Assembly (NCBI RefSeq): GCF_001571405.1
Contig: NZ_BCNX01000003.1
Span: forward strand, 186,001 to 250,000
Direction of reading: 5' to 3'
Length of the DNA stretch: 64,000 nt
DNA from: Methanoculleus thermophilus
Lineage (GTDB): Archaea > Halobacteriota > Methanomicrobia > Methanomicrobiales > Methanoculleaceae
In this document: positions 11,409 to 24,787 of the stretch, piece by piece
Layout: each line of letters opens with the position of its first letter
Position numbering within the stretch: the first letter of the stretch is position 1
Made by a program: the position numbers and the translations under genes
Notes under the pieces: generated by a model
What the model saw: the letters and a program-made list of their open reading frames with translations, nothing else
Told to the model about the DNA's origin: nothing
Databases searched by the model: none

Positions 11409-12310
11409 GGGCGGCGGGCTTCGGTTTTTGGGATGCTCTTTTTAAGTGGTTTGCGCCCTTACGATCTGTCCGGTTTTTGATTTATCGTCGCATATCTGCT
11501 GAGTTGGTTTCCCATGGGCTATCGCCACCCACTGCCCCCGCCAGATGGGCGGAACGACTCTCCCAGAGAGGAAGGAGTTGGAACATCGACAGGTGCAAGT
11601 TACGACGGCCGGAACGGCAGGAGTTGGAGCACCGGAGGTGCGACTTATGACGCTCGGAAAGAGCGGAGCATGAGCAAGGCCGGGTGGGGTGGTGGATACT
11701 TACGTACAACATAGAGACAGGGAGGAGCGAGGATCAAGTTTGAGTAAGACCGGAAGTAAGCGGCAAAACCCAGCACACTGGACCGTGGGGACATCGCATT
11801 TCGGGGGGGAGGGGACAGGGGAGGGGGGATGCTCCCCCCTCGCACCTAACGGTGCTCAAGCTCCGCTCTTTCAGAGCGTCGCACTCCTCTGAAACCCCAC
11901 CCCCTAATGCGATACCCCCATGGAATCCGTATCAGGACTGGGTATCAGCACGTTTCAAACGGCCCTGACTCGAAAAGTTTCAAGGGGAGCATCCCCTCAC
12001 CCGCCAGACCGCCGTTTCTTCCCACGCTACCTATACACGCCGAACAGCCACCAGCGGCGCCGTCGCTGATGAATGGATGAGATCCAGTCGGTACGGATTG
12101 GGCTACGAGAAGCATATCTCCCACCCTGCGCCACGGCCGAGAGATGCATCTCGACCGTCAATGGAGATGCGGGAGCGATTGTCTTTTCATTACACGAAAA
12201 TGGAGTGGGATCTGCACGTCATCCCATGTAGAAATCTCAAATACAACGGGATTGAGCATCGGCAGATCTCGGGGGATCTCGCCCTCATTGAGAGGATCTG
12301 CCGAAGGCTC
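11409..12310. other. 902-bp gap without a gene, between converging genes
   Basis: It holds an oligo-T stretch just after the fusion gene (GGTTTTTGGG and CTTTTTAAG, 11432-11453) and a 423-bp repeat element (listed separately). About 380 bp of unstructured sequence then reach the inositol-phosphate synthase stop. Short frames here (for example 11514-11714) run through hairpin repeats and are not credible genes. Confidence 0.7.
11506..11928. repeat. MITE-like non-coding element, copy 1
   Basis: A 423-bp block bounded by imperfect 21-bp inverted ends (11506-11526 and 11908-11928; consensus GGATTTCC, five variable bases, then TATCGCC). The interior is a chain of small hairpins: GCCG-GAA-CGGC, GCACC-GGA-GGTGC, a CGCTC/GAGCG dyad, GAGGGGGG-ATGCT-CCCCCCTC (11821-11841), GCACC-TAAC-GGTGC (11842-11855) and CGCTCT-TTC-AGAGCG (11864-11878). 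The right third matches copy 2 at 24207-24604 in reverse orientation. No transposase gene lies inside, and I saw no clear target duplication. Confidence 0.6.
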
Positions 12311-22412: not shown

Positions 22413-23281
22413 GCACACGGGGAAGCGCTCTCGCGCTTGCGCAGACAAAGAAGGTGGCCGGCCTCCTCGCCGACCGGGGTATCGAGACGGAGATCATCAC
22501 GATCACGACCGAGGGCGACACCGCAACCGGCGTCCCGCTCCATGCCATCGGCGGGCAGGGGGTCTTCGTGCGGGCGCTTGATGAGGCGATCATCCGCGGC
22601 GAGATCGACGCTGCGGTGCACAGTATGAAGGATATCCCCGCAGCCCGTCCTGCGGGAACCGTCTGCTGTGCGGTGCTTGAACGGGACTCGCCTGCGGATT
22701 TTCTTGCGCACGAGGGTCCCCTCGATGCGGTCAGGATCGTCGGGTCCTCGAGCACCCGCCGCCGCGCCCAGCTCCTCCGCGAGGAACCGGCGCTTGAGGT
22801 GAAGCAACTGCGGGGGAACGTCGATACCCGGATACGGAAGCTCCGCGAGGGGCAGTACGACGCCATCGTGCTCGCGGAGGCGGGCCTCCAGCGGCTCAAC
22901 CTCACGCTCCCCGGCGAGCCCCTCCCGACCGACCGGTTCGTCCCGTCCCCAAACCAGGGGACCATTGCGGTTGTCTGCCGGGACGACCCGGCCGTCGCCG
23001 AGGTCTTTGCCCCCCTCGACCACGCGCCCACCCGTCTCGATGTGGAGATCGAGCGTGCCGTCATGGAGGAGGTCGGCGGCGGGTGCTTTACCCCGCAGGG
23101 GATCTACTGCCGGAACGGGAACCTGACCGCCGAGGTGCTCGCGCTCGACGGCTCCCGTTGGGAGCGGATCGAGCGACACATAACAACAATCGACGAGGCG
23201 CGGGAGTGCGGGCGCGAACTGCGCCGACAGGCGGCCGACCTTATCCGGGAGGCATATGCAGCACTGGGGATAAAACCATGA
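22397..23281 (+). CDS. hemC: Hydroxymethylbilane synthase (porphobilinogen deaminase)
   Basis: Polymerises four porphobilinogens into hydroxymethylbilane. 294 aa; the dipyrromethane cofactor Cys is C230 in [12 protein letters not shown], and [10 protein letters not shown] and [12 protein letters not shown] are the conserved substrate-binding blocks. It overlaps hemL by 16 bp and its TGA stop overlaps the cobA ATG. Its product needs HemD to give uroporphyrinogen III, but hemD does not follow here. Confidence 0.97.
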
Positions 23282-24006
23282 CAGGAAAAGCGTATCTTGT
23301 GGGGTCTGGCCCGGGCGGGCTCGGCCTCCTGACGATGAGGGCCCGCGAGGTGATCGATGCGGCGGACGTAATCCTCTACGACCAGCTCCCCGGCGAGGAG
23401 ATCCTCGCATCGCTTCCTAAGAGCGCCGAACTCATCGACTGCGGGAAGTACGGCGGCAACCACACCATGGAGCAGGACGAGATCGAGGCGCTGATGGTCG
23501 AGCGTGTCAAGGCAGGGAAGACCGTTGTCCGCTTAAAAGGAGGCGACCCCTTCCTCTTCGGCCGCGGCGGGGAGGAGGTCGAGACCCTCCGGGAGCACGG
23601 CATCCCCGTCGAGGTGGTACCCGGAGTGACGAGCGCCATCGCCGTTCCCGAGATGGTCGGTATACCGGTCACTCACCGGCGATACGCGTCGCAGGTGACG
23701 TTCATCACCGGCCACGAAGACCCCACGAAACCCGAGTCCGCCCTCGACTGGGAGGTCCTCGCCCGCCTGAAAGGGACCCTCGTCGTTCTGATGGGCGTAA
23801 AGAACCTCCCCGCGATCGCGAAAGCCCTCACGGCGAACGGCAAGGACCCCGCGACCCCCGTGGCTATCATCGAGCGGGGGCTCCGGCCGGACCAGCGCGT
23901 GACGGTCGGGACCCTTGCCGACATCGCCGAGAAGGCCCGCGCCGCAGGTGTCCGGCCGCCGGCGGTGATCGTGATCGGGTGGGTGGTGGAACTTTACGAG
24001 GGTTGA
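23278..24006 (+). CDS. cobA: Uroporphyrinogen-III C-methyltransferase (SUMT)
   Basis: SAM-dependent double methylation of uroporphyrinogen III at C2 and C7 to precorrin-2. 242 aa; N-terminal YLVGSGPGGLGLLTMRA, LKGGDPFLFGRGGEEV, the P-loop-like VPGVTSAIAVPE and IPVTHRRYASQVTFITGH are diagnostic. Its start, ATG 23278, overlaps the hemC stop (ATGA). The product feeds the dehydrogenase encoded by the first gene of the operon. Confidence 0.96.
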   Translation: MTGKAYLVGSGPGGLGLLTMRAREVIDAADVILYDQLPGEEILASLPKSAELIDCGKYGGNHTMEQDEIEALMVERVKAGKTVVRLKGGDPFLFGRGGEEVETLREHGIPVEVVPGVTSAIAVPEMVGIPVTHRRYASQVTFITGHEDPTKPESALDWEVLARLKGTLVVLMGVKNLPAIAKALTANGKDPATPVAIIERGLRPDQRVTVGTLADIAEKARAAGVRPPAVIVIGWVVELYEG

Positions 24007-24060: not shown

Positions 24061-24206
24061 GCACTGATTATTCCGGGTTGGTGGTGTTTTAAGAAGTGTT
24101 GGCGAGAATTGGGCGGCTCTATAGGGCATGCCCTTCAGGGGGTGACGTGAGGGCCTTTGTGCTTTTAGTCCTCTGTTTCTGCTCGTAGTCATTCACACCC
24201 ATGCAC

Positions 24207-24604
24207 GGATTTCCGGTGGATATCGCCATTGGGGGAGGGGCCGACGGGGAGTGCGATGGTCCGAAGGACCGGAGCTCGAGCACCGTTAGGTGCGAGGTGC
24301 GAGCGAAGCGAGCTTGAGAAACTCGAAGAGTTTCGAGAACGAAGGGCGGAACGCCCTGAGTTCGAGCACCGTTAGGTGCGAAGGGGGCTTGCCCCCCTCC
24401 CCTGTCTCCGCACCTAAAATAGATGTTCTGTGTGATTCGTTGACATGACGAAATTATCCCCTCAAGAAGAGATGTAGAATATCTGTGGGGCTTTGAGGGT
24501 CCTTGCCTGCGAGATGATGCCGCAAACCCCCACCGCCCGCGCTTCGCGCTCCTCCCGCCCCCTCAAGGGGGCGGGCAGTGCATGGCGATAGCCGCTGGAA
24601 ATCC
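24207..24604. repeat. MITE-like non-coding element, copy 2
   Basis: A 398-bp block with inverted 21-bp ends (24207-24227 and 24584-24604, 18 of 21 positions matching). Inside is a run of short hairpins: GGTCC-GAA-GGACC (24258-24270), GCACC-GTTA-GGTGC (24280-24293), a GCGAAGC mini-hairpin near 24303, AAACTC-GAA-GAGTTT (24319-24333), GGGCG-GAA-CGCCC (24344-24356), a second GCACC-GTTA-GGTGC (24366-24379), GGGGGC-TT-GCCCCC (24383-24396) and GCCCCC-TCAA-GGGGGC (around 24557-24572). It is homologous to copy 1 at 11506-11928. No coding capacity. Confidence 0.62.
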
Positions 24605-24787
24605 ATGTTCGGAACGTTCGAACCGTAAAATATGAGTCCTTGAGGAGCGGGCGAGGTAAGGCGTTCTCAAACACGAGTATTCTTACCCTCAACTATGCCG
24701 GAAAATTTCTCCATCCTATCCGTGCACCACTCCCTGCAACCGGAATCCTCTTTTCCCCTCGCACGCTTACCTCCTATGAGAATTACC

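Follow-up and report, generated by a model that had tools for sequence, protein, structure and literature searches.

Covarying double-hairpin units with GNA/GNNA loops in Methanoculleus, probably a non-autonomous mobile element that inserts into a G-quadruplex-type repeat

The window analyzed here is a stretch of 64,000 nucleotides from the Methanoculleus thermophilus contig NZ_BCNX01000003.1. An intergenic gap, flanked by genes that Pfam assigns to a tetrapyrrole methylase (23083-24006) and to ilvD (from 24788), holds an array of three tandem hairpin units (24252-24382). The array is enclosed by a larger host element of about 404 bp, which the initial annotation of the locus had overlooked, and whose left terminal inverted arm (24204-24229, plus strand) is 85% complementary to the right one (24582-24607, minus strand) according to a repeat search; a second, diverged copy of this element lies at about 11505-11930. 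Comparison with unit-free orthologous copies assigns the first three G-runs of a repetitive G-quadruplex motif to the G-rich alpha arm (GGGGGAGGGGCCGACGGGGAG; 24231-24251, plus strand), and places the insertion point of the units directly 3' of this arm. The beta arm (24383-24407, plus strand), consisting of the GC hairpin GGGGGCTTGCCCCC and of CTCCCCTGTC, supplies the fourth G-run and a C-rich track, and an alignment of nine orthologous loci delimits a gamma block (24520-24590, plus strand) with the hairpins GCGCTTCGCGC and CCGCCCCCTCAAGGGGGCGGG plus CAGTGCATGG. As for the inverted repeats by which MITEs are recognized, the host element has inverted ends and single units are devoid of terminal inverted repeats.

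In the host element, the G-rich arm together with the C-rich track is the repetitive G-quadruplex/hairpin sequence (rPQS) of Methanomicrobiaceae as characterized in the available part of its description (Chashchina et al., 2021; PMC8044849), down to the CTGAC central loop and an equal orientation to genes, and the alpha arm is close to the [CTGAC]-loop rPQS given there. The double-hairpin units, the inverted ends and the insertions, in contrast, are absent from that part of the description. Unit-free orthologues possess four G-runs with a central loop of the CTGAC type, followed 3' by a C-rich track, whereas the window copy has three G-runs (central loop CCGAC), then the units and then the fourth run, and thus lacks four adjacent G-runs because the unit array splits 24231-24251 from 24383-24397. 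In this family, the G-quadruplex repeats described so far are thereby shown to be parts of larger composite elements that receive insertions of other elements. The spacer that separates the beta arm (GTCTCCACC) from the gamma block (TGTAACCCCCACCCC) of the host element is often about 13-16 nt long and differs in sequence in nearly every copy, although conserved sequence lies on either side of it (L186, L189, L199, L204 and further loci upstream of ilvD); the window (24408-24519) and L184 have about 110 bp in its place. A CGCGAAG-rich intergenic repeat (e.g., CCTCACGCGAAGACGCGAAGAACGCGAAG) occurs at the ilvD-upstream locus in L190 and L192, and often adjoins unit insertions (L222, L232, L145 and L088).

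Copies compared across many genomes give the unit the consensus CGA-H1-GAGYNYGA-H2-GA(A/G), a non-coding sequence of about 35-46 bp. The stem of its first hairpin (H1) has either 5-7 bp or 2 bp (GC-GNA-GC, AC-GNA-GT, CC-GNA-GG), and its second hairpin (H2) is either GCACC..GGTGC or of an A-rich type, e.g., GAAACTC..GAGTTTC or GAAGACC..GGTCTTC. All three units of the array lie on the plus strand. Unit 1 (24252-24296; covariance-model match at 24253-24295, 67.2 bits) starts with TGCGA, followed by H1 (T)GGTCC-GAA-GGACC(G) at 24257-24271, the linker GAGCTCGA (24272-24279), H2 GCACC-GTTA-GGTGC (24280-24293) and GAG (24294-24296). Unit 2 (24297-24337) starts with GTGCGA and bears the mini-hairpin GC-GAA-GC (24303-24309) as its H1, a two-base-pair class that is common across loci, then the linker GAGCTTGA (24310-24317), H2 GAAACTC-GAA-GAGTTTC (24318-24334) and GAG (24335-24337). 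Unit 3 (24338-24382; covariance-model match at 24339-24381, 53.0 bits) is composed of AACGA, H1 (A)GGGCG-GAA-CGCCC(T) at 24343-24357, the linker GAGTTCGA (24358-24365), H2 GCACC-GTTA-GGTGC (24366-24379) and GAA (24380-24382). The second host-element copy contains one unit on the minus strand (11840-11882, 66.2 bits), with H1 CGCTCT-GAA-AGAGCG and H2 GCACC-GTTA-GGTGC, that BLAST also links to the stretch 24205-24304. A further unit adjoins this copy on the plus strand (11602-11643, 44.0 bits; H1 with GCCG-GAA-CGGC), together with weaker partial units at 11554-11598 (12.0 bits) and 11651-11680 (14.0 bits).

The initial annotation had described a series of GAA-triloop hairpins, and each of them is present in the sequence: GGTCC-GAA-GGACC (24258-24270), AAACTC-GAA-GAGTTT (24319-24333), GGGCG-GAA-CGCCC (24344-24356) and the GCGAAGC core (24303-24309), as well as CGCTCT-GAA-AGAGCG on the minus strand within the copy spanning 11840-11882 and, at 11608-11618, GCCG-GAA-CGGC. 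These hairpins are real and above chance: the window has eight triloop hairpins of the GAA/TTC kind with a 5-bp stem, whereas 30 second-order Markov sequences average 2.3 and never exceed 6, and the folding z-score for 24200-24612 is -6.7 (RNA) and -5.3 (DNA). That description did not include the fact that each GAA hairpin is one half of a two-hairpin unit, nor that the second hairpin can have a GTTA loop, as at 24280-24293 and 24366-24379, which makes the loop rule GNA/GNNA and thus wider than GAA.

The unit is amplified genus-wide. Our genome searches, which give lower bounds, found about 60 units in this genome, at least 53-99 in most other Methanoculleus genomes, at least 33 in one, and at least 0-12 in a subset; incomplete bins account for some of the low counts. 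The element was matched in 33 of the 34 other genomes of the genus. One other Methanomicrobiaceae genus has at least 74 units and the rest of the order few. Pattern matches in named records fall nearly all in Methanoculleus or in Methanomicrobiales/Euryarchaeota bins, and many of the loci derive from metagenome-assembled genomes. A single pattern match on a contig labeled Acidobacteriota (L109) may be due to chance or mis-binning, and the matches to the unit model in three order-level relatives outside the family (10, 2 and 3 in G071, G077 and G056, respectively) could stem from distant relatedness, transfer or contamination. Some units form tandem arrays with a period of 46 bp, and in genome G020 (contig C1, 1429837-1430387) ten units of identical score, mostly spaced by 46 bp, form a minisatellite, which suggests a recent tandem expansion. 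A 45-nt satellite family has been listed earlier for M. marisnigri (PMC6749651); searches of the open-access literature on Methanoculleus repeats found no account of the units.

Covariation of the H1 stems was examined in 74 distinct H1 sequences gathered by their flanking anchors, with pairing not required, and aligned free of gaps. Paired cells amounted to 88.5% against 66.7% in shuffles (0/500), which keep the relatedness that exists among copies, and 82 cells were changed on both sides against 24. The covariation score was 0.582 against 0.216 when shuffled and at most 0.155 when slid, and Watson-Crick pairing stood clearly above shuffles at five of the six stem positions, the outermost being the exception. 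At position 4 an unpaired G-G is frequent (25/77 H1 sequences, e.g., CTGGCC-GAA-GGGCAG), as if this mismatch were tolerated or preferred. Between nearest-neighbor units the stem underwent about 7 changes per site, about 4 of which break or restore a pair, against 34 at the middle base of the loop; in this check, which the initial annotation had proposed as a refuting one, the stems thus change below the rate of the free loop base. The stems thus covary as had been proposed, yet the statement that they change completely while pairing and loop are kept applies in part to different units standing side by side and not to one hairpin evolving in place. The accompanying reading of this pattern as strong evidence for selected structure was overstated, because multiplication and recombination of the units, as mobile or tandem copies, may also preserve paired arms through copying or template switching; selection as the cause of the covariation is likely but unproven, and copying or gene conversion could also produce it.

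The loops follow a rule of their own. H1 triloops are mostly GAA, GCA, GGA or GTA, i.e., GNA with a free middle base (G first in 58/77 and A last in 64/77), the remainder of the rule being GNNA loops, 31 of 32 of which are closed by C-G. Two-base-pair H1 stems conform to the same rule (GC-GNA-GC in 53/64, AC-GNA-GT in 21/23). H2 loop statistics could be drawn only from units with other linkers, because loci L031-L150 were retrieved with a pattern that allowed only GNNA for the H2 loop and only GAGYTYGAG for the linker; in the CACC class with linkers outside this pattern (n = 69), nearly all H2 loops are GNA/GNNA (GAA, GTTA, GTCA, GCA, GCTA and so on). Loops of the form G..A, or their complement, make up 59% of triloops and 51% of tetraloops near units, compared with 15% and 12% elsewhere in the same loci. 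A loop of the GNA or GNNA type that is closed by two or more G-C pairs is known to give an extraordinarily stable, nuclease-resistant DNA mini-hairpin, GCGAAGC having a Tm of 78 C (Hirao and colleagues; PMC4686876). The pointer of the initial annotation to the d(GCGAAGC) mini-hairpin was therefore apt, given the GNA/GNNA loops and the stems of down to 2 bp, and by these sequence statistics the units have such loops on two or more G-C pairs, with A-T pairs in some stems. The same annotation had named both single-stranded DNA and RNA as options; since the third base of the tetraloops is usually a pyrimidine (GNYA), unlike the GNRA of RNA, DNA is favored.

The units are polymorphic between orthologous sites and nest within one another. 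Upstream of ilvD, the nine orthologous host elements have zero, one or three units at a single site bounded by GACGGGGAG and the GC hairpin. In the gamma block, where the window copy has no unit, two of them (L184 and L194) have one. An all-against-all comparison of loci showed that L041 and L072 are about 97-99% identical in their flanks and are distinguished by 94 bp corresponding to a unit with a nested unit, and that L072 has a 49-bp nested insertion of its own; other candidate clean insertions between relatives measure 36, 42, 44, 54, 81 and 96 bp. In L046, a 44-bp unit with GAAG on both sides splits a short gene, which has a weak HicB-like Pfam match below the curated cut-off and is intact in L240. 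This is the only unit within a protein gene that an uninterrupted orthologue confirms, most of the flagged cases that were read having the appearance of overlong gene starts or spurious ORFs. A scan returned 28 candidate nestings in H1 and 7 in H2, some of which are ordinary tandem arrays, and for 4 of the 10 nestings checked the exact uninterrupted recipient is present elsewhere. The 5' flanks of units are mostly TGCGA or AACGA and the 3' flanks GA(A/G): GA(A/G) follows H2 in 244 of 303 units and precedes the CGA at a distance of 0-3 nt in 243 of these 303, against 15% for background CGA. Among distinct contexts the flanking trinucleotide is the same in 63 and different in 34 (Fisher p = 0.004), the figures for isolated units being 26 and 16 (p = 0.12), and several empty-site cases have GAA or GAG on both sides of the unit, suggesting a putative 3-bp target duplication. 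Homing to hairpin loops was rejected as the general mode of targeting, since 27 of 80 reconstructed GAR targets are hairpins, compared with about 25 after shuffling.

Several explanations have to be weighed against one another. Were the hairpins to act as RNA, whether in intergenic transcripts, as terminators or as 3' structures of mRNAs, their stems would covary under RNA selection. In line with such a role, a strong RNA fold is predicted (z = -6.7), compensatory pairs include G-U intermediates, and units are more numerous in convergent than in divergent gaps (150 vs. 44, from approximate gene calls and with array units not independent). The lower number in divergent gaps is also what is expected of DNA tolerated away from promoters. 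Against a role as RNA, the orientation of units relative to co-directional flanking genes is even (83 same, 80 opposite, again from approximate gene calls and with array units not independent). Besides the preference for GNYA over GNRA, many H1 stems have 2 bp, for which ViennaRNA gave no fold with RNA or DNA parameters, an uninformative comparison between the two, and a scan of Rfam found no family at its gathering score (best match 17.7 bits vs. 48), all of which leaves a function as RNA improbable. The many units at one fixed place in the host element could instead mean that they are passive cargo, spreading only together with the inverted-ended G-quadruplex-type element. Orthologous host elements differ in unit content, however, 74 units are solitary by pattern and many stand in other contexts (some in or near host elements), and the unit in the gene of L046 occupies a site that never held a host element, so that we regard passive carriage as very unlikely.

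The search for a mover bears on the remaining alternatives. Y1 transposase (PF01797) is absent from this genome (G000) and from most of the genus, its matches occurring mainly in unit-poor genomes (G002, G014, G021, G022 and G023; G010 is an exception). Reverse transcriptase (PF00078) is absent from this genome and from 32 of the 35 genomes of the genus, on which ground a reverse-transcriptase route was rejected. An autonomous element with the ends of the host element was not seen in this genome in a search with one end type, the close matches falling at the host element's own short copies, and phages, plasmids and viral contigs gave no match. The short intergenic palindromes, high copy number and single-stranded hairpin logic recall REP-like repeats mobilized by a Y1 transposase of the RAYT/IS200 type, a route that is largely refuted and scarcely credible here, as PF01797 is missing from this genome and elsewhere confined mainly to unit-poor members, and the units have no terminal GTAG or CGTC tag (as defined in PMC3733652). 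The lack of Y1 transposase and reverse transcriptase in this genome would agree with a mutational origin, in which quasi-palindrome correction, slippage and template switching make, keep and spread the hairpins with neither a transposition enzyme nor structural selection. Tandem arrays with a 46-bp period and arms kept paired by template switching would also fit it. Such an origin is possible, but we consider it rather unlikely: clean insertions between orthologues are found at unrelated sites, one of them in a gene, and GNA/GNNA loops with free middle letters are not expected of arm correction alone.

On balance, the units are probably a non-autonomous mobile double-hairpin element of Methanoculleus in which the folding of one DNA strand is conserved. 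Copies of this element would spread to GAA/GAG targets, which may lie in the G-quadruplex-type element, in a hairpin of another unit, in further intergenic repeats or, now and then, in a gene, and tandem copies might then multiply by slippage. What is kept would be the fold of one DNA strand, i.e., two mini-hairpins with GNA/GNNA loops, mostly closed by C-G, which should be stable as DNA even with 2-bp stems and whose stem letters vary compensatorily. We infer that the folded single strand may be the form that is copied or inserted, for example at replication or repair. It would be unusual for selection or copying to act on the shape of chromosomal single-stranded DNA, as it would in a natural repeat family that obeys the rule of the most stable known short DNA hairpins and whose stems may vary provided that pairing is retained. 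The small size, genus-wide amplification, nesting and apparent absence of a transposase make the question of movement testable in culturable methanogens.

Among known systems, REP/RAYT elements (PMC3733652) are likewise short extragenic palindromes of high copy number, but the units differ from them in having two hairpins each, no GTAG/CGTC end tag and no Y1 transposase in this genome. The BOX elements of Streptococcus pneumoniae (PMC3049150), compared here by layout and not by sequence, are also composite and intergenic, with end modules, a variable number of internal modules and burst-like spread, whereas the units also move and nest independently and show covariation at the level of the mini-hairpin. 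With the d(GCGAAGC)-type mini-hairpins (PMC4686876) they share the grammar of a GNA/GNNA loop on at least two G-C pairs; those are synthetic DNA, whereas here the grammar is that of a genomic repeat family in which some 2-bp stems contain an A-T pair. By analogy of architecture rather than sequence homology, and with kinship by descent to any known system not being claimed, the nearest functional analogue appears to be the double-hairpin element (DHE) of Allomyces mitochondrial DNA, along with related organellar hairpin repeats (Paquin et al., 2000, as cited in PMC2800124, PMC4478555 and PMC7218506). As far as these citing accounts describe them, the units differ from the DHEs in residing on an archaeal chromosome, in their conserved GNA/GNNA loops and in a possible GAA/GAG target duplication, flanking duplications being reported as absent for the DHEs (PMC2800124). 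In the same accounts, DHEs are short, non-coding and mostly intergenic, sometimes lie in genes, and have a mobility that was deduced from optional insertions with no known enzyme; the unit is similarly a short non-coding repeat of two consecutive hairpins that is optionally present at orthologous sites, and the question of how such elements move is common to both.
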